A stretch of DNA of 64,000 nucleotides from Fusibacter paucivorans (GTDB lineage Bacteria; Bacillota; Clostridia; Peptostreptococcales; Acidaminobacteraceae), in assembly GCF_018390735.1 (NCBI RefSeq), contig NZ_JAHBCL010000001.1:62001-126000 (forward strand). Direction: 5' to 3'. The notes beneath the pieces were generated by a model that saw only the letters and a list, made by a program, of their open reading frames with translations, searched no databases and had not been told where the DNA came from. Position 1 is the first letter of the stretch; every line of letters begins with the position of its first letter. The translations under genes and the position numbers were made by a program. This document shows positions 2,106 to 64,000 of the stretch, one piece after another.

Positions 2106-3647
2106 TCACATGCCTCCCATCTTTGAAAGCAAATATACGACGCCAAAACAAACGCCAAAGGTCGTCAAGAGCAAGCGTATGATAAAGTGTTTCGAAAACG
2201 AGGATGACAGCAACAGCACGTTTTTTATATCCATCATCGGTCCAAAGACGATAAATCCCATGATCGCGCCAAGTGAAAATTGGCTCAAGAAACTTCTGGC
2301 GACAATGGCATCTGAGGAAGAACAAAGTGAGAGGGCAAAGGCAAGGCACATCATAACGACAACGGCACCCGCTCCCTGATAAACACCAAGGGTATTCTGA
2401 ATATTAATGACCTGAAGAATCGCTGAAACAAACGTCCCGATTACCAAATACTTACCGACGTCAAAGAAAGTTGCCTGCGCGTGACGCATCACAACCCAAA
2501 ACCTTTCTTTAAGTTTTCCATCCGTCGTATCTTCATAAAATCCACAACTGCATAAGATCTCCTCATAGCGCGTCTCACGAAAAAGGTTATCTCCTGCAGG
2601 CCATATGATATATGTCGTGCCAATGAAGATCGCCGTGATAATGCCAAAACAAATACGGCTTGCAACAATGAATAGATCGCCACTAAAGGCATAGTAGGTC
2701 GATACAATAACCCATGGGTTAATGACTGGCGTCACCAGCATAAAAGTAACTGCTGCAGGCAGCGGCACACCCTTGCGTAAAAGCCCCTTAAAAACAGGAA
2801 TAGATGCACAGTCACAAACAGGAAAAAGAAAGCCGCCAAGAACGGCAAAAAGCATTCCCATGCCAATCGATTTTGGAAAATAGCGTTCAATAAGTCTTTG
2901 GGGTACTAAAATCTGAAGCACCGATGACAATAAAACACCAATCAGCAAGAAAGGAACTGCTTGCAGTATAATCCCTAAAAAAATATTGACAATTGTATCA
3001 GCCGGAATACCAATCGCATTCAGCACCGCTTTTACCAACAAGTATATCCCCGCCAATAGCAAAAACGTAAGTGATAAACGACTGCCCGCATGCTCTCGCT
3101 CCTTGGTAAGTTGTCTTTGAATCGCTTCATAGGCATCAAATTGGAGTAGCTTGACACCTGGGTTCAATCTTTTTAATTGTGCTTTTAAGCGTCGATCTAT
3201 CTGACCTCGCATGGCAATACAATCACATTCTGCAACTTGGGACAGCAATGCGGGCCCCGTTCTCCCCAGTAAGTTTGGCAGCATCTCTGCATGTCCTACG
3301 AGCAGCATCCCCTTTAGGCTGCATTTTCCTTTTAAAACAGAAGCGTTTAATAGTTTATAAAGCTGCTCCATCGCAACCATACCGTTCCATTCAATCCACA
3401 GAGCATCGGGCCTCTCTGACGCTATCAGGCCTGCCATTTGTTCAGCCACCAATTCTGGTTGCGACATCGTTTGTTCCATTGAAAACATTAGGCTTTTAAC
3501 ACAGCCTTGCAGGACCGTTTCACCCATCTCAAATTGTACCACCCCCACTTTTGCCGATTGCCATTCGCTTCTGCTAAGCAATTGATTGAGAAGCATCGTC
3601 TTTCCAGACTCTAGAAACCCTGAAACCACGTATATTGGGGTATTCAT
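2106..3647 (-). CDS. Fusion of a CobW-like GTPase domain and a DUF318 permease
   Basis: A 513-residue two-part protein. Residues 1 to about 185 resemble CobW/COG0523: P-loop GFLESGKT at 10-17 and a degenerate remainder with VGVVQFEMGE, but no CxCC metal motif (CVKSLMF stands in that region). Residues about 200-513 form a DUF318 (YcgR-like) permease with roughly eight hydrophobic segments and the family motif FPVCDCASIPVFKGLL, then LVTPVINPWV. These two domains are normally separate neighbouring genes. The frame is continuous through the linker (KEREHAGSRLSLT). Start at 3647 follows AGAGG and lies 1 nt past the CobW stop. Likely role: energised or gated metal or metallo-ligand transport; the substrate is unknown. 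Confidence 0.82.
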   Translation of the reverse strand: MNTPIYVVSGFLESGKTMLLNQLLSRSEWQSAKVGVVQFEMGETVLQGCVKSLMFSMEQTMSQPELVAEQMAGLIASERPDALWIEWNGMVAMEQLYKLLNASVLKGKCSLKGMLLVGHAEMLPNLLGRTGPALLSQVAECDCIAMRGQIDRRLKAQLKRLNPGVKLLQFDAYEAIQRQLTKEREHAGSRLSLTFLLLAGIYLLVKAVLNAIGIPADTIVNIFLGIILQAVPFLLIGVLLSSVLQILVPQRLIERYFPKSIGMGMLFAVLGGFLFPVCDCASIPVFKGLLRKGVPLPAAVTFMLVTPVINPWVIVSTYYAFSGDLFIVASRICFGIITAIFIGTTYIIWPAGDNLFRETRYEEILCSCGFYEDTTDGKLKERFWVVMRHAQATFFDVGKYLVIGTFVSAILQVINIQNTLGVYQGAGAVVVMMCLAFALSLCSSSDAIVARSFLSQFSLGAIMGFIVFGPMMDIKNVLLLSSSFSKHFIIRLLLTTFGVCFGVVYLLSKMGGM

Positions 3648-55925: not shown

Positions 55926-56729
55926 TTACAATTTGGTCAGCGGTTTCAGGTCATCAACCGTTAACGCCACTTGGAACCGATAGCCCGCCAATACCTTTTT
56001 AGGTGAAAAATCGCTGAGTTCATGATCTGCCATTACCGTAAAGTCCAGCATTGCTTCACCTTTTGCCACTTTGGAAATCTGCACGTCTCTCGATTTCAGC
56101 TGTACCAGCTCATGTACCAATGGCTGCTGGTGATTGCCCTTCACGAGATCTGGGAAATAACGTACCAGTGCAGAACCGGCAAAACTGGGTGCCGGCATAT
56201 TGGCATCCGCTTCATGAACTTGAACGCGTCCCGCCATATAGCGTTCGCCGTTTACAGACAGCGTTGCCGCCGATAGTCCCGTAGGCGCCGCTTTTGATTC
56301 CAGAGCGTATGATCTCGACATATGCGTCGAACCCAACTGCTTTGGCCATCCCTGAATCAGACCGCGCATCAGCGCCTTGTCCTGATCTACCCAGATGAAA
56401 GGACAGTATGCCATTGCTTCGCCCTTATAGCTGCCGCTCATAAGCAGGATCGTCTCTCGATACTGGCTTTCAACTGGGTCCAAATAATCTTCTGTGGTTT
56501 CTGATGTATACTGCCATTCAATAAAATACACACAGCACTGAGTAGATTCCATTTGCATAGGCGCCGGCAAGTAAGGCGCTATTTTTTCACCATCTGCTTC
56601 AAACTCGATTGCCGTCACTTGGCCTACATAATGCCATGGGGGCGGTGCGACGATTCCCGAAGTTCCCTTCGGCGTTCTTGGGGATGTAAACCCTTTTAGC
56701 GTATCTGACGCCGGTGTCTTGTTTGCCAT
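55926..56729 (-). CDS. Acetoacetate-decarboxylase-family protein
   Basis: A 267-residue protein with GEAMAYCPFIWVDQDKALMR and GLIQGWPKQLGS, where the lysine corresponds to the Schiff-base residue of acetoacetate decarboxylase. Many family members are not true acetoacetate decarboxylases and act as aldolases or dehydratases on related keto acids. No CoA-transferase or thiolase gene is adjacent, so a solventogenic role is not supported. GGAGG 6 nt before the ATG at 56729. Confidence 0.85.
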   Translation of the reverse strand: MANKTPASDTLKGFTSPRTPKGTSGIVAPPPWHYVGQVTAIEFEADGEKIAPYLPAPMQMESTQCCVYFIEWQYTSETTEDYLDPVESQYRETILLMSGSYKGEAMAYCPFIWVDQDKALMRGLIQGWPKQLGSTHMSRSYALESKAAPTGLSAATLSVNGERYMAGRVQVHEADANMPAPSFAGSALVRYFPDLVKGNHQQPLVHELVQLKSRDVQISKVAKGEAMLDFTVMADHELSDFSPKKVLAGYRFQVALTVDDLKPLTKL

Positions 56730-57213: not shown

Positions 57214-58878
57214 ATGATTCGACAAAAGCATACGAAAAATGTCACAGTATTAAAAGATCAGTCAAGCTTATTTGCGTACTGGGCATCACTAGACTTACAT
57301 ATCAAACAAATCCAATGGCTCTCAGGAGAGCATCATAAGTTTTTCCGCATGATGATGACAAAAATGCAGGATGTCCTCAGTTATGGCGAGGACAATGTTG
57401 CCAGCATTGAAGAAATTAATGCTGCCATCAGCGAACTTGAAGCACTGTCCATCCATACCGAGACCGTTGTCAGCGATCTCAATGCAACAACATCCGCCTG
57501 GCAGGGTGCCTTCTATAAAACCAAAGCCATCTTTAATAATATTCATGTCTTAAATACACAAGTTCTCGAAGCCAATGTGGAAACACTTGCCGAAAATAAG
57601 GGGCTGCAATCATCCGCGCGGGAAATTGATGCCATTATTGAATACATTCGCAAGATTGCAAGACAGACACACTTGTTGGCACTCAATGCTTCAATTGAAG
57701 CGGCGAGAGCAGGTGAAGCCGGCAGAGGCTTCGCCGTCGTCGCTCAGGAAATCAACAAGCTCTCCTCTGAGACAGAAGAAGCGACTGAAAAGATCGAACA
57801 CATTGTCGACAATTTCAAATCAAAGACTGCCAACCTAAACATCAGCATGGCAGCACTCTCACAGCAGTCGCAATCCGTAACGCATGAAATTAGTGAAAGT
57901 CAAAGTGTTTTCGAGGATTTTGATCACGCCTTTGATGCGATTGCCAGTGCCGTCAATTCTCTCGAATCCCAGACACAGCAACAGCGTGAAACCACTAAAG
58001 GGCTCCACGCAGCCATTGCTACCATTACAACGGCTATCACAGACACACATGAACAGACACTTGAAACACTTTCTCAGACAAGGGAATTAAAGCACAAAAA
58101 TGACGAACTCGTCGCCGTCTACGATTCAGTTGAAGGAATCATGATCAGAATGCAAAAGGAACTCGATCCAACTGCAGCAGGTGCCAAGCTCATTGTGGGG
58201 ATCAACCCCTTTACCTCGCCAATGCAAATTGTTTCGCGCTATGGTCCTATTTTAGAAGCGATTTTCCAAAACGATTTCGTCATTTACGTTCCAAAGGACT
58301 ACGAAAGCATTCAATCCGATTTGGTGAGCGGTCTAATCGACATCGCATGGCTCTCACCTTTTGCCTATGTACAAACCGCCAAAACATGTGCGCTGACGCC
58401 ACTGGTTTCACCGTTGGTTAATGGCAGCGCCAATTACCGCGGATACATTATTTCACAGCAGCTTTCATCACTCCAGCAAATCCAAGGCAAATTTGGATTC
58501 GTCGATGAAAACAGCGCCTCTGGTTATCTTTATGCTAAAGCCAAACTATCTGAACTGCAATTACCACATGAACCCGTTTTCCTCGGCAGCCATGACCGCG
58601 TTATTGAAGCCGTCTTAAAGGGAGAAGTCGTTGCCGGGGCTACTTATAATGAAGGCCTTGAGCACTACGGCGGTAATATTGCCGCGCTTAAGATGCTCTA
58701 TGAAACCGCCCCCATCCCCAAAGACTGCATTGTCGCCAATAAGCACTCGGAATCGCTGGACATCGAAAGTATCAAGAACCGTTTCACCGCCTACCATGGG
58801 CAAAACAGTGCCAGTATCACCGGGTTTATTGCAATTGATGATGCGGCATACGATGTTGTCCGCAGTGTAAAAAGATAG
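57214..58878 (+). CDS. Soluble chemoreceptor fused to a PhnD-like substrate-binding domain
   Basis: A 554-residue protein with no signal peptide and no membrane helix. Residues ~50-310 form a coiled-coil signalling domain with the methyl-accepting hairpin [20 protein letters not shown] at 154-173. Residues ~325-554 resemble phosphate/phosphonate (PhnD-type) ABC binding proteins: [35 protein letters not shown] and [19 protein letters not shown]. Binding domains of this kind are normally outside the cell; here it follows the signalling domain in the cytoplasm. It probably senses an internal oxyanion or similar ligand. A sigma-54 promoter precedes it. Confidence 0.87.
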
Positions 58879-59032: not shown

Positions 59033-60397
59033 TTACAGGCGATCACTTTTTTGCGATGCTCTTGAAGCTCGCCATAATTCATCAGCAATCGGTGCCCACC
59101 CGGCAGCCGCGTTTTCACATTTTGCTGACAACTCGACGACATCTTCAGGATTTTGCAAATCTGTTGAATGTGCACCGGAAATCTGTACGACATGTACTAG
59201 TTCACTGGGATTATCCAGCAGCGGACATGGTCTCAGATGATTGTCATTCCACGGCTGCCCAGCTTGATATGCTTTAAAAAGCGGACTCATCAGCGCTTCT
59301 AGCAGCGTTTTATCTGCAATATTGGAATCAGAATAATGGGTAAAAGCACAGGGCTCATAATCACCGTTGGCATTGATGTGCATATACACGCGGCCGCCTG
59401 CTAAACAGCCATTTGAGTATTCACCGTCATTCCAGAAATCCAGTGTAAAAATCGGCTTTGTCTCCCTGAATTTACGGATTTGCTGATACATAAACTGACG
59501 CTGTTCAGGCGTTACCATCAATTCCGGTACTGCGTCTTTCCCGACGGGCATATAGGTAAAAAACCAGCAGAATTTAGCGCCCCATGCAATCATTTGATCA
59601 AAATAAGCTTCACTGCCAATCATTTCTGTATTTTGACTTGTATAACAGCAGGAAATCCCAAAAGGCAGCTGATACTCACGTAAAATTGTCATCGCACGCG
59701 TTACTTTATCAAAGGTGCCTTCACCGCGTCTAAAATCTGTTTCTTTCTCAAATCCCTCTACGCTAATGGCAGGGATAAAATTTTTAACGCGTTTCATTTC
59801 TGCTGCAAATGCTTCATCAATCAGCGTCCCATTTGTAAAGGCAGTGAATTGACAGTCCGGATGCGCTTCGCATAATCGAATAATGTCTGCTTTTCGCACA
59901 AGCGGCTCACCGCCCGAATAGAGGAACATATATGTTCCTAGTTCATTGGCCTGTGTAATAATTGAATCCATTTCCTCGTAGCTCATATTGAGCTTATTCC
60001 CATATTCCGCCGCCCAGCACCCCGTGCACTTCAGATTGCAAGCTGACGTTGGGTCCATAAGAATCGCCCACGGAATATTACATCTGTATTTTTCACGGCT
60101 CTCGTGCTGTTTCGCCATCCCAGCTAAGCTTGCATTGATAAAAAAGTTTTGTACTGTTGTTTTTAAGACGTCGTGATCAATTTCTTCACAGAGATTAATG
60201 ACATATTGGTGCCATGTATGTTCTGGATCTTCTGCCATGGGGCGAACGGTTTCAATAGCACTTTTAAAATTGCCGGCTACATCAAAACGATCTGCCCATT
60301 CAACTAATTTTATAAAATTATCCTGCGGTGATTTTAAGACATAAGTCATCACCATATCAAGCGCTTTCTCTTGTACTCTGTCCATAAATTTATTCAT
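59033..60397 (-). CDS. Radical SAM/SPASM-type enzyme
   Basis: A 454-residue enzyme. The radical SAM cluster motif CNLKCTGC (Cys120, Cys124, Cys127) follows a ~115-residue helical N-terminal domain. FLYSGGEPLVRK is the SAM-binding GGEP motif. C-terminal cysteines in SNGCLAGGRVYMHINANGDY and EPCAF, then RPCPLLDN, suggest a SPASM-like auxiliary cluster. Such enzymes often modify peptides. Directly upstream on the same strand is a 28-residue hydrophobic peptide gene, a plausible substrate or partner. Start at 60397 with CTAGGAG upstream. Confidence 0.88.
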   Translation of the reverse strand: MNKFMDRVQEKALDMVMTYVLKSPQDNFIKLVEWADRFDVAGNFKSAIETVRPMAEDPEHTWHQYVINLCEEIDHDVLKTTVQNFFINASLAGMAKQHESREKYRCNIPWAILMDPTSACNLKCTGCWAAEYGNKLNMSYEEMDSIITQANELGTYMFLYSGGEPLVRKADIIRLCEAHPDCQFTAFTNGTLIDEAFAAEMKRVKNFIPAISVEGFEKETDFRRGEGTFDKVTRAMTILREYQLPFGISCCYTSQNTEMIGSEAYFDQMIAWGAKFCWFFTYMPVGKDAVPELMVTPEQRQFMYQQIRKFRETKPIFTLDFWNDGEYSNGCLAGGRVYMHINANGDYEPCAFTHYSDSNIADKTLLEALMSPLFKAYQAGQPWNDNHLRPCPLLDNPSELVHVVQISGAHSTDLQNPEDVVELSAKCENAAAGWAPIADELWRASRASQKSDRL

Positions 60398-60486
60398 TTT
60401 TTTCTCCTAGACAATCTATTTTCATTCAGTATTTTAAAATAAGGCAATTGCATCATTCAAATTTCCTTATAAACATTTACAGAAAG

Positions 60487-60523
60487 GCGGCATAGGCAAT
60501 TGTGAATACAATTCCTATGCCGC
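60487..60523. other. Hairpin between microprotein and radical SAM genes
   Basis: GCGGCATAGG pairs with CCTATGCCGC (10 bp, with inner AATTG/CAATT). On the minus strand it is followed by TTTCTGT, a weak T tract, so it could be a leaky terminator that gives more peptide than enzyme mRNA. Confidence 0.75.
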
Positions 60524-60530
60524 ATACATT

Positions 60531-60617
60531 CTATTTATTTTTTTTGTTTTTAACAAATGCGGCCACTGCGATCACTGCAACGGCTGCTACACCAACAATT
60601 GCTACTGGATTTGCCAT
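60531..60617 (-). CDS. 28-residue hydrophobic microprotein upstream of the radical SAM gene
   Basis: Too short for routine gene finding, but well supported: GAGGAGGTG lies 7 nt before the ATG at 60617 and the frame ends in TAG. The protein starts MANPVAIVGVAAV, continues AVIAVAAFV, and ends KNKKNK: one membrane-length Ala/Val helix with a lysine-rich cytoplasmic-type tail. A hairpin follows before the radical SAM gene. It may be a peptide substrate (RiPP-like), a membrane anchor or a regulator. It has no Cys, Ser or Thr, so only C-H chemistry on aliphatic, Asn, Lys or Phe residues would be possible. Confidence 0.75.
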   Translation of the reverse strand: MANPVAIVGVAAVAVIAVAAFVKNKKNK

Positions 60618-60740
60618 CGTTTTCACCTCCTCAATCTTAATCATTTCGTTTCTATATGTGAATGGTTGCTTTAGTACCTATGGTTTCCGACTTCAGCATC
60701 TACGGCAGAGACAGTCCTCTCCTCCAATCCCTAACCATTA

Positions 60741-61283
60741 TTAGTCTTCTGATAAATCTAACAGCTTTGTTGCATTCGCACATACTTCGTATATTTCATC
60801 ATATTTCGCTTCTATAATTGGCGTCACTTCCATCGTCTTTTTGCGAACAATATTGCGGTAAATCCAATAAGGTACGATCCAACCGATAAATGCTGGAATC
60901 GCCAGAATAATACATAATGGGATATTCCCTGCAACAACTGCAAATACAGAGCCTGCCATAAAAGCAGTTCCGATAATGCCAACACCATAAGCCATCCCAG
61001 ACGCCTTCGTCACTTTTGATTGCTCTAATGATGCTATCTCATTGACACCCGCATCAAACTGCCGCTGCAATCTAGCGAGTTCAGATTTATTGCGAAGTTT
61101 GCGGTTGCGTTTAAATTTCATTGATACAAACAGTGTTCCCTTTAGGGGGACAGCACTGCTTTCAAACTCCCAGCCAAAGCTTGGATAGCTATCAATGTAG
61201 ATTGATTCCATTTGGCGCTTTGCTGTTACTTCTTTGTATTCAAAACCGATAAAGTTTTTTTGGCCTCTTGCAAATTCACTCAT
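60741..61283 (-). CDS. Unknown membrane protein with two central helices
   Basis: A 180-residue protein. The N-terminal soluble part contains FIGFEYKEVTAKRQMESIYI, SYPSFGWEFE and MKFKRNRKLRNKSELARLQR. Two membrane helices, GVGIIGTAFMAGSVFAVVAG and IPAFIGWIVPYWIY, are followed by a C-terminal acidic helix. I know no function. A clear paralogue begins at 63552 on the other strand. Start at 61283, about 9 nt after AAAGGGG. It precedes the microprotein and radical SAM genes on the same strand. Confidence 0.75.
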   Translation of the reverse strand: MSEFARGQKNFIGFEYKEVTAKRQMESIYIDSYPSFGWEFESSAVPLKGTLFVSMKFKRNRKLRNKSELARLQRQFDAGVNEIASLEQSKVTKASGMAYGVGIIGTAFMAGSVFAVVAGNIPLCIILAIPAFIGWIVPYWIYRNIVRKKTMEVTPIIEAKYDEIYEVCANATKLLDLSED

Positions 61284-61692
61284 TGCCAACACCCCTTTGT
61301 TTGAAAATAATTTTGTATGTCGCTGTTGATATCACTCTATGCTCAATTCATTTCAAATTTGCTTATAATCTGTTTCTAAAATATTAATGCGCATAAAAAT
61401 CAATTTAGGAATAAATTTGGAAATAAATGAATGCTGCTTCTCCCATTTTGCGCAGCAAAAGTTAGCGCTTAGCGTTCTCTTAACAGGGTATTGAATACAG
61501 GAAGAGATCGCTGTTAACAATTCAGAAACATTTCTCAAACAAAAATGAAGTATTTTTTCATTATGATGGTTACAATAATAAAGAAGCTTCATTGTGAATA
61601 GCCTGGCCACAACACTGTATTTCTAATATAAATATGCCAGTGACGTGAAGCGTTAATCGGCATATTGCTTATATTGAATGGAGGAAATTTGA
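61284..61692. other. Divergent control region of the two-component system
   Basis: About 410 nt between the membrane-protein gene (minus) and the response regulator gene (plus). The 13-mer CATTTCTCAAACA at 61529-61541 recurs at 63464-63476 upstream of the paralogue. A minus-strand frame at 61353-61610 has no ribosome site and is not called. Confidence 0.5.
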
Positions 61693-62364
61693 ATGGTAAA
61701 CATATTGGTCGTCGAAGACGATGTTAAACTAAACCAGATCGTCTGCACGTATTTAAACGATTGCGGCTATAAGGCAAAGGGGTGCATGAATCCCCAAGAG
61801 GCATACGATCTCATGTACAATACACTGTACGATATGATTATTTCGGATATTATGATGCCCGGCATCGATGGATTTGAATTCGCAGAAACCATTCGCGAAC
61901 TCAACAATACAATTCCCATCCTCTTTATGACGGCAAAGGATGATATTATTTCAAAGCAAAAAGGGTTTCGCCTCGGCATTGATGATTATATGGTAAAGCC
62001 CGTTAACCTCGATGAACTCGTAATGCGCGTTGGTGCCATTTTACGCCGTGCAAACATCGTTGAAGACCGCAAGCTTACCGTCGGCAACTTTTCCATGGAC
62101 GCTGACGCCGTTACAGCAACCATTGACGATGAAGAAATTCCTTTGACACTTCGAGAGTTCAACATTCTATACAAATTGTTGTCTTATCCCAAAAAAACAT
62201 TCACCAGAGCACAGCTAATGGATGAATTCTGGGGCATTGAAAGCGAGACGAGCTTAAGGGCCGTTGACGTTTACATTACAAAGCTTCGCGATAAACTAAC
62301 GCCTTGTGATGGCTTTCAAATCGTCACTGTCCGGGGACTTGGCTATAAGGCGGTACTGCAATGA
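61693..62364 (+). CDS. OmpR-family response regulator
   Basis: A 223-residue protein. The receiver contains LVVEDDVKLNQ, Asp52 in IISDIMMPGIDG, FMTAKDD and DDYMVKPVNLDEL. The winged helix contains LTLREFNILYKLLSYPKKTF and VDVYITKLRDKLTP. GGAGG lies upstream of the ATG. It overlaps the kinase gene by 4 nt (ATGA). Its likely targets are the two flanking membrane-protein paralogues. Confidence 0.93.
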   Translation: MVNILVVEDDVKLNQIVCTYLNDCGYKAKGCMNPQEAYDLMYNTLYDMIISDIMMPGIDGFEFAETIRELNNTIPILFMTAKDDIISKQKGFRLGIDDYMVKPVNLDELVMRVGAILRRANIVEDRKLTVGNFSMDADAVTATIDDEEIPLTLREFNILYKLLSYPKKTFTRAQLMDEFWGIESETSLRAVDVYITKLRDKLTPCDGFQIVTVRGLGYKAVLQ

Positions 62365-63440
62365 AGCAAAGGCCAAATGCAAAGGTAAGATCGAATATAT
62401 TCCCCTTTTCAAGCTTTGTTGCATCTTTCTTTGCACTGGCTGCTCTAACCACCGGTCAAATGCTCATACTCAAAAACATCATTTTATTTGATCATGTACC
62501 AACGCCGTATATAGCAGCAGTTCTCATCTATTGGCTCTTTGTTGCAGCGGCTTTTACCTATATCACTTTTTTACAGATTGATCGGCGCTATCAGAAACCT
62601 ATGGAGGGATTTGCACAAGTCACCCGCAAGGTGGCAAGCGGTGATTTTTCTGTTTATATGCCACAGCGTCATCTACCTGATAAGCAGGATTATCTGGATG
62701 TAATCATTGCCGATTTTAACATCATGATCGAAGCACTCGGCAGTATTGAAACACTGAAAACCGAATTTTTTTCGAATGTCTCACACGAAATCAAAACACC
62801 GCTTTCCGTTATTCAGAATTATGCGCAGGCTTTAAAAAGTGATAAGCTTTCAGAAGCACAGCGAGCAGAATATGTTGACACTATTTTAGAGTCTTCTGCA
62901 AAACTCAATGACCTCATCACAAATCTCTTGAAACTAAATAAACTGGAAAATCAAAATCTACAGCCTCTTTCAGATCCTTATGACCTCTGCGCCCAACTCA
63001 GCGAATGTGCACTGCGCTTTGAAGATCTATGGCTTAAAAAAGACATCGAATTCATTGCAGATATTGAAGACCGTGCAACGATTGATGCCGACGAAAGCCT
63101 TATGGAAATCGTCTGGAACAACCTCATCTCCAATGCGATTAAATTTTCGAATCCCGGCGGGATCGTCACATTGCAGCAGACATCCACAGATTCTGAAATC
63201 ATTGTAACGATCTCAGATACCGGCTGCGGCATGGACGAGAAAACAGCCAATCATATTTTTGACAAATTTTTTCAAGGTGACACTTCACATGCAACCGAGG
63301 GGAACGGCTTAGGGCTGTCTCTCGTTTTGAGAATTTTACAAATCATGAATGGCACCATTACAGTTTCCAGCATTGAAGGAAAAGGCAGTACCTTTACTGT
63401 GCGAATGCCTTCGTCATCAATCACTCAATCAGAAGATTAA
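62361..63440 (+). CDS. Membrane sensor histidine kinase
   Basis: A 359-residue kinase with two membrane helices (about 16-37 and 50-70) and almost no extracellular loop (~12 residues), so it probably senses within the membrane. A HAMP-like segment is followed by H-box SNVSHEIKTPLSVIQNYAQA with His142, N-box WNNLISNAIKFS, and G-boxes DTGCGMDEK and GNGLGLSLV. A membrane-sensing kinase next to membrane-protein paralogues suggests that envelope state or the microprotein is the signal. Confidence 0.93.
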   Translation: MKQRPNAKVRSNIFPFSSFVASFFALAALTTGQMLILKNIILFDHVPTPYIAAVLIYWLFVAAAFTYITFLQIDRRYQKPMEGFAQVTRKVASGDFSVYMPQRHLPDKQDYLDVIIADFNIMIEALGSIETLKTEFFSNVSHEIKTPLSVIQNYAQALKSDKLSEAQRAEYVDTILESSAKLNDLITNLLKLNKLENQNLQPLSDPYDLCAQLSECALRFEDLWLKKDIEFIADIEDRATIDADESLMEIVWNNLISNAIKFSNPGGIVTLQQTSTDSEIIVTISDTGCGMDEKTANHIFDKFFQGDTSHATEGNGLGLSLVLRILQIMNGTITVSSIEGKGSTFTVRMPSSSITQSED

Positions 63441-63551
63441 TGATTAATAAATACGGCATAAGCATTTCTCAAACATTTTTATGGCATACTCTAAGGTATA
63501 AAGCAATTACCTCACATAATCTCTAATCCTCGAACTTAAAGGAGTTCATAG

Positions 63552-64000
63552 ATGAACAATACAATCAATAACAATTTTGTCGGATATGACTATAAAACCA
63601 TTACAACTGACAGCGAAAGCGTTTCTATGTATTTAGACGGTTTTACCAATTTCGGCTGGATTGTCGACGACAATATACAAACCAATAATATCAATGGTAA
63701 GGTCACTTTAAAATTTAAGCGAGACCGGAAAATTCTCAATAAAACGGAACTGACCAGACTTCAGCGACATTTTGAAGCCTGTATGCTTGAACTCAGCGCA
63801 TTAGAACGGTCTAAAGCCTCTGATGCCACCGCTTGGTCATTGGTTGTCGGCTTCGTTGGCACCGCCTTTATAGCCGGCTCGGTTTTCGCAGTAACAAATG
63901 ATCCGCCTCATATCCTTTTGACCATTCTCTTTGGAATCCCCGGATGCTTGGGATGGCTTCTTCCCTATTTTGTCTATAAGTCTAGAATTGTAAAAAAAAC
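63552..64000 (+). CDS. Paralogue of the 60741 membrane protein, cut by the right edge
   Basis: An open frame of 149 codons to the window end, starting at an ATG after AAAGGAG. It shares with the 180-residue protein FVGYDYK (FIGFEYK), NFGWIVDD (SFGWEFES), LKFKRDRKILNKTELTRLQR, LSALERSKASDA and the helices VGFVGTAFIAGSVFAV and GWLLPYFVY. It follows the histidine kinase gene by 111 nt. Function unknown. The C-terminus is outside the window. Confidence 0.8.
   Translation, partial: MNNTINNNFVGYDYKTITTDSESVSMYLDGFTNFGWIVDDNIQTNNINGKVTLKFKRDRKILNKTELTRLQRHFEACMLELSALERSKASDATAWSLVVGFVGTAFIAGSVFAVTNDPPHILLTILFGIPGCLGWLLPYFVYKSRIVKK

Follow-up and report, generated by a model that had tools for sequence, protein, structure and literature searches.

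The locus lies near the end of the window, as we call the whole 64,000-nucleotide stretch of Fusibacter paucivorans DNA that was analysed. Its genes and features are listed in Table 1. MP183, DUF186 and MP128 are labels coined here for clusters of proteins that have no Pfam family above cut-off. The second MP183 gene is cut by the window's end and is whole in the genome contig. The original prediction had described a short gene with a good ribosome site, a hairpin, an enzyme and an upstream two-helix protein; we found the ATG frame behind GAGGAGGTGA, and the other three at the positions given there. Two further genes were noticed on the far side of the enzyme gene. One (57214-58878, plus strand) encodes a 554-amino-acid protein with an MCP signalling domain and a C-terminal phosphonate-binding, PhnD-like domain, and the other (55926-56729, minus strand) a protein of the acetoacetate decarboxylase family; its top-scoring NCBIfam model is MppR, at 147.7 bits against a cut-off of 380.

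Table 1. Genes and sequence features at the locus (positions in the window).
Feature	Position	Strand	Remarks
Radical SAM enzyme, 454 aa	59033..60397	minus	five-helix N-terminal domain, SPASM/twitch-like C-terminus
Stable hairpin in the microprotein-enzyme gap	60487..60523	minus	16 pairs, -23.7 kcal/mol, z -6.4
28-aa microprotein MANPVAIVGVAAVAVIAVAAFVKNKKNK, class A	60531..60617	minus	ATG frame, strong ribosome site, relatives
Microprotein ribosome-binding site region GAGGAGGTGA	60618..60637	minus	9-nt match to AAGGAGGTGA
MP183, 180-aa two-helix membrane protein	60741..61283	minus	no Pfam/NCBIfam family above cut-off
Two overlapping direct-repeat matches, putative response-regulator site	61516-61534, 61527-61545	plus	between MP183 and regulator gene
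OmpR/PhoB-type response regulator	61693..62364	plus	
Sensor histidine kinase	62361..63440	plus	HisKA + HATPase_c
Further direct-repeat match	63461..63479	plus	91 nt before second MP183 gene
Second MP183 paralogue, 45% identical	63552..64000	plus	cut by window end

The microprotein has a single membrane helix, as predicted by hydropathy, and a basic C-terminal tail. Profile searches against Pfam and NCBIfam gave no family above cut-off. The best weak Pfam match was PF12669 (E 0.27), the FeoB-associated Cys-rich membrane protein, which is also short and single-helical; the microprotein, in contrast, is free of cysteine and its score of 12 bits is far under the cut-off of 27. We denote as class A the Val/Ala/Ile-rich microproteins of 25-28 amino acids with a basic tail, and as class B those of 28-41 amino acids with a different tail. 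A profile built from 13 class A members matched one short frame in the own genome, the window microprotein itself (E 1.4e-7), the other match being inside a 704-amino-acid frame. A promoter scan around the microprotein gene showed no excess over shuffled sequence. The hairpin between this gene and the enzyme gene is not a textbook terminator, since just three T follow it.

The enzyme had been predicted to be a radical SAM protein with a SPASM-like C-terminus, and the analysis supports this: the Pfam Radical_SAM model matches with E 3.3e-19, and the C-terminal region appears SPASM/twitch-like, scoring 20.6 bits against SPASM (PF13186), slightly under the cut-off of 21.5. Among the 25 best NCBIfam models none reached its cut-off. 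In an alignment of 54 of the 83 enzyme rows described below (L049 was omitted for an in-frame stop), the CxxxCxxC cysteines C120, C124 and C127 are invariant; of the auxiliary-cluster-like cysteines C331 and C391 are invariant, and C350 and C427 nearly so. The Radical_SAM match and the CxxxCxxC motif place the enzyme in the radical SAM superfamily. The AlphaFold model (mean pLDDT 87, pTM 0.88) has five N-terminal helices, and residues 3-104 are helical throughout, so that no winged-helix leader-binding domain is seen there. Pfam gave no PqqD/RRE match in the enzyme itself, a search that remote or separate RREs could escape. The solved folds closest to the model are SuiB (Z 24.1, 3.3 A, 310 aligned), SkfB (Z 23.8), anSME (23.6) and ChlB (22), with GDGT-MAS lower (Z 16.9). 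The fold match says nothing of the substrate.

A contig scan returned at least 588 relatives of the enzyme, of which the best 80, all with at least 59% identity, were kept; together with the window and two own-genome paralogues (64% and 55% identical) they make up the 83 loci examined. We counted short frames that have a ribosome site and encode one strong helix by hydropathy, leaving out those inside long frames. There are 24 in 141 kb of sequence up to 900 nt from the enzyme; beyond that distance, 434 kb hold 9, some of which are themselves class A or B. The enrichment near the enzyme is 8.2-fold (p 2e-8, relatedness ignored), and the frames there are mostly class A or class B. A microprotein adjoins the enzyme in 20 of the 42 loci that belong to two enzyme clades (here clade 2) and in none of the 41 others. 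On the FastTree enzyme tree the positive rows fall 12 in a 26-row clade and 8 in a 16-row clade; both clades thus include rows without a microprotein. The confinement has a Fisher p of 1e-7, relatedness again ignored, and the tree requires 11 state changes. Three loci (L012, L023 and L061) are positive at a laxer threshold only, the frame of L023 being a loose look-alike, so the strict count is 17/42. Other lax matches were not counted: L043 and L086 have TTG starts and belong to neither class, and that of L077 lies within a longer frame. Because three pairs are near duplicates (L068/L069, L072/L073 and the window/L009), the distinct positive loci number about 17. For neither own-genome paralogue was a microprotein found within 900 nt.

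Several loci carry more than one copy, with four in tandem in L031 and two each in L034 and L072. The L031 genes (2966-3464, minus strand) are near-identical, repeat with a period of about 137 nt and each have a strong ribosome site. Across the aligned microproteins there is no invariant column. Many of the 41 microprotein-free rows have in its place a regulator of the TetR type and a degenerate radical SAM relative. This relative (for example L007 426-1448, minus strand) is divergent from the enzyme and forms a cluster present in 16 loci, most of them with the TetR-type regulator and all in enzyme clades without the microprotein; the copy in L007 lacks CxxxCxxC. The recurrence of related small frames beside clade 2 enzymes indicates that the microprotein-enzyme association is genuine, though not exclusive.

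Codon changes point to selection on relatives of the small frame. Pooled over four selected close pairs of microprotein genes, the differences are 13 synonymous and 6 non-synonymous, against an expected non-synonymous share of about 73% (p 2e-4). The pairs contribute 5 and 0 (L031 copies 3 and 4), 4 and 3 (L031 copies 1 and 2), 4 and 2 (L072 and L160) and 0 and 1 (L068 and L069). In three more diverged pairs the raw counts of silent and replacement changes were 5 and 15, 3 and 15, and 5 and 15; with replacements outnumbering silent changes, the helix drifts among Val, Ala and Ile. The window frame itself is unchanged over its 87 nt in a 97%-identical relative, which offers too few sites for a test. 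These counts indicate purifying selection on relatives of the microprotein, which as a short, single-helix protein by hydropathy we regard as a genuine, previously overlooked membrane microprotein.

We then compared the distribution of microprotein and enzyme over whole genomes. In genome G234, which is 99% complete, MP183 and a DUF186 look-alike flank two class A microproteins, and the two-component pair is on the same strand; the genome has no enzyme of this radical SAM family, its best match having E 1.2e-7. Among 293 genomes of the host's taxonomic class, the enzyme is present at E 1e-100 in 65, and class A matches in short frames occur in the own genome and G234 only, so that, within the limited reach of the profile, just one of the 65 enzyme-bearing genomes, the window's own, has one. 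MP183 is present in 9 of the 293, the own genome and G234 among them; 8 of the 9 have no enzyme at E 1e-100, the closest enzyme-like match in those 8 being one in G295 (31% identity over part, E 2.7e-42). In a sample of 398 genomes of the phylum MP183 was found in four: the own genome, G589, G392 and G722. G589, found through MP183, has the order response regulator, histidine kinase, MP183, SDR, MP183, enzyme, microprotein. In G392 and G722 there is no enzyme of the family, and no class A frame in the stretch examined. Over the ten MP183 genomes without the enzyme, class A occurs in G234 only, with a weak look-alike in G199.

In 40 genomes that contain enzyme loci, most of the class A matches in short frames are found at the enzyme. 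Extra copies occur in G344 on two other contigs, away from its enzyme; tblastn found no enzyme in the 11-12 kb around them, and one of these copies has ABC transporter genes and a class B frame as neighbours. In L161 (2133-6246) ABC transporter genes precede one class B and two class A microproteins, with no enzyme of this family in the 12 kb examined. On a small contig of G338 a microprotein copy adjoins MP183 at the contig end, and an enzyme may thus lie beyond it. With each member's own locus left out, the microprotein profile recovered 12 of 13 members among 10,126 frames. The first census profile missed both G234 microproteins, and a second profile, trained on both, recovers them by construction; profile-based counts of absence are therefore weak. 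The other matches of the second profile sit in frames of at least 60 amino acids. The three shortest (in G105, G274 and G235) were considered and rejected: they are longer proteins, one of them Cys-rich, and none is class A.

The enzyme looks alike with and without the microprotein. In the 54-sequence alignment 174 columns keep the same residue in both settings, the level of conservation being 90% for the larger microprotein-bearing clade and at least 85% for the smaller clade and the remaining rows. Among the columns conserved within each of three enzyme groups, the residue changes from group to group in 7. The one column that splits the microprotein-bearing clades from the rest is 159 (L or I), and we rejected it as a specificity signature. 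Since the enzyme is so similar where the microprotein is missing, the microprotein is unlikely to be its sole substrate. The proposal that the enzyme modifies the adjacent peptide thus gained no support: class A occurs without the enzyme in G234, 64 of 65 enzyme-bearing genomes of the class gave no class A match with a profile of limited reach, conservation of the enzyme is much the same with and without the microprotein, and the peptide has no invariant column. We rejected enzyme-substrate pairing as the default reading; a non-substrate role in the membrane, which the original prediction also listed, may still apply.

What the window and G234 have in common is an OmpR-type two-component system and MP183. 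In other genomes the cassette includes an SDR enzyme, DUF186 (169-196 amino acids) and MP128, a small multi-helix membrane protein. A search for plasmid carriage of MP183 gave no match. The suggestion of a possible undescribed membrane system that includes the two-helix protein is supported. A motif search in 15 response-regulator upstream regions recovered a direct repeat, AACAWTTYTTTAACATTTS, whose two half-sites are 11 nt apart. Before 12 of the 15 genes it has the orientation of the gene and begins between -59 and -84; in the window it is at -177, and two genes have none; because the genes are homologous, shared ancestry contributes to this pattern. The window match at 61516-61534 was among those that built the motif. 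The three best matches in the 64-kb window are all in this cassette, and, since shuffled windows give 0.8 matches of score 15 or more per 64 kb, only those of 19.4 and 18.1 stand out. A scan of the own genome places the exact box in this cassette; with up to 3 mismatches there are 43 matches against 36 in a control.

At -74, -77, -92 and -73 the box also precedes four microprotein operons (L072, which is the same as the first site of L164, the second site of L164, L160 and L161). It is found before six MP183-type genes as well, the DUF186 and MP128 genes of L164, and the enzyme in L026, L061 and L077. With motif-building loci excluded, the two microprotein-bearing enzyme clades have 0.159 and 0.107 boxes per kb, and the others 0.041, near background (shuffles about 0.02). 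A score of 11 was reached in 0.4% of shuffled upstream regions. A box of score 11 or more at -140 to -30 was found for 4 of 33 microproteins; among the upstream regions of 96 other genes in such loci there were 5. The excess is not significant (p 0.23), although of these 5 boxed controls at least three belong to the cassette or come from a gene that occurs twice, and many microproteins are second or later genes. No box stands directly before the window microprotein (best score -0.1), whose expression would depend on the promoter of MP183, with a box 233 nt upstream in the opposite orientation. On sequence grounds the predicted regulator control of the cassette has good support, and control of each individual microprotein less.

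Neighbours of the enzyme give a hint of its chemistry. Some family members lie near lipid-type genes, namely PlsY, a PLD-type synthase, a patatin-like protein and an HpnA-like SDR, and also near DegV; for the SDR the best NCBIfam model is HpnA, at 232 bits under a cut-off of 367.65. The 121 co-directional neighbours of clade 2 enzymes, in which histidine kinases rank first, include 11 of these, 6 response regulators, 6 SDRs, 4 ABC and 4 MFS transporters, and 2 each of PlsY and DegV. No peptidase is among the 25 commonest of their 117 Pfam families. The tally had no control, and the lipid neighbourhood is thus a hint only. At the own genome's third enzyme copy (L008 2929-7969) we noticed patatin-like and DegV-cluster proteins and, by eye only, UppS-like and lipid-kinase-like proteins.

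Conservation of the microprotein, purifying selection, occurrence without the enzyme, membership of the cassette and the shared repeat can all be read from the DNA. The likely organising principle is the two-component cassette rather than an enzyme with its substrate, and we lean, with some reservation, towards the microprotein being a single-pass membrane protein of that cassette and not the dedicated substrate of the enzyme. The tie to clade 2 enzymes, the boxless window microprotein and the non-significant box count weigh against this reading. The membrane histidine kinase and the OmpR-type regulator would act through the direct repeat of 11-nt period, by presumed binding and activation. 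The genes induced would be those of the pair itself, MP183, part of the microproteins and, within the relevant enzyme clades, the radical SAM gene. The microprotein would insert in the membrane, its basic tail probably inside, and may act there as a stress-induced helix or as an adaptor for another membrane protein. The enzyme would then be a separate output that acts on its own conserved substrate, which may be a membrane lipid. A more specific version, an undescribed membrane-remodelling response of anaerobic Firmicutes in which the two-component system induces an oxygen-sensitive radical SAM enzyme that chemically alters bilayer lipids, two-helix MP183 proteins and multicopy Val/Ala microproteins that pack into the membrane so altered, is a tentative idea that we hold to be rather doubtful.

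That the enzyme epimerises or crosslinks the microprotein helix, as in RiPP maturation, seems unlikely to us, even though its closest solved folds are peptide or protein modifiers and tandem copies beside the enzyme, up to the four in L031, are an arrangement that RiPP precursors may show. The enzyme-free class A microproteins of G234 speak against it (an unrelated enzyme could serve them there), as do the undiminished conservation of the enzyme in microprotein-free clades, the variable peptide, the all-helical N-terminal domain of the model and the lack of a peptidase among the 25 commonest neighbour families, with the ABC and MFS transporters leaving room for an exporter. The genetic tie of a RiPP precursor to its modifying enzyme is not apparent in G234 or, within the reach of the profile, in 64 of the 65 enzyme-bearing genomes of the class. 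We think it improbable that the microprotein anchors the enzyme to the membrane or serves as its regulatory subunit. The two genes adjoin on the same strand in the window, a helix with a basic tail would suit bringing a soluble enzyme to a membrane substrate, and among enzyme loci the microprotein is limited to clade 2; however, it occurs without the enzyme in G234 and away from it in G344, and is not seen beside most near-identical enzymes. A type I toxin-like peptide, tandem and silenced by antisense RNA, is very unlikely: its size, single helix, basic tail and repeats of about 137 nt recall small membrane toxins, but the ribosome sites are strong and a regulator-type box stands before four microprotein operons.

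A literature search at the level of abstracts, with passages of PMC11868695, turned up no paper on this enzyme-microprotein pair or cassette. The analysis points to three families, namely microproteins for which neither Pfam nor NCBIfam has a model, widespread radical SAM enzymes and the MP183 membrane proteins, with one predicted regulator site tying the three together; signal, regulon and enzyme substrate are testable in culturable hosts. It also cautions that a short peptide encoded beside a radical SAM gene need not be the substrate of the enzyme. Radical SAM enzymes that act on lipids include GDGT-MAS/Tes (PDB 7tol) and bacterial Mss and HpnH. What links the enzyme to this group is the lipid-type genes near some enzyme family members; the fold match to GDGT-MAS/Tes is lower than to the RiPP maturases. 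SuiB and SkfB (PDB 5v1s, 6efn) are closest in fold and share CxxxCxxC and auxiliary-cluster-like cysteines. The enzyme differs from both in its 16-17% identity to them, its all-helical N-terminal domain and its conservation irrespective of the neighbouring peptide. In enterobacteria MgrB and SafA are small single-pass membrane proteins controlled by two-component systems. Unlike them, the microprotein is Val/Ala-rich, often tandem and found mostly in anaerobic Firmicutes, its control by the regulator is only predicted, it belongs to a cassette with MP183 and partly with the radical SAM enzyme, and we claim no sequence similarity; what it has in common with MgrB and SafA is its shortness, its one helix and its tie to a two-component system.
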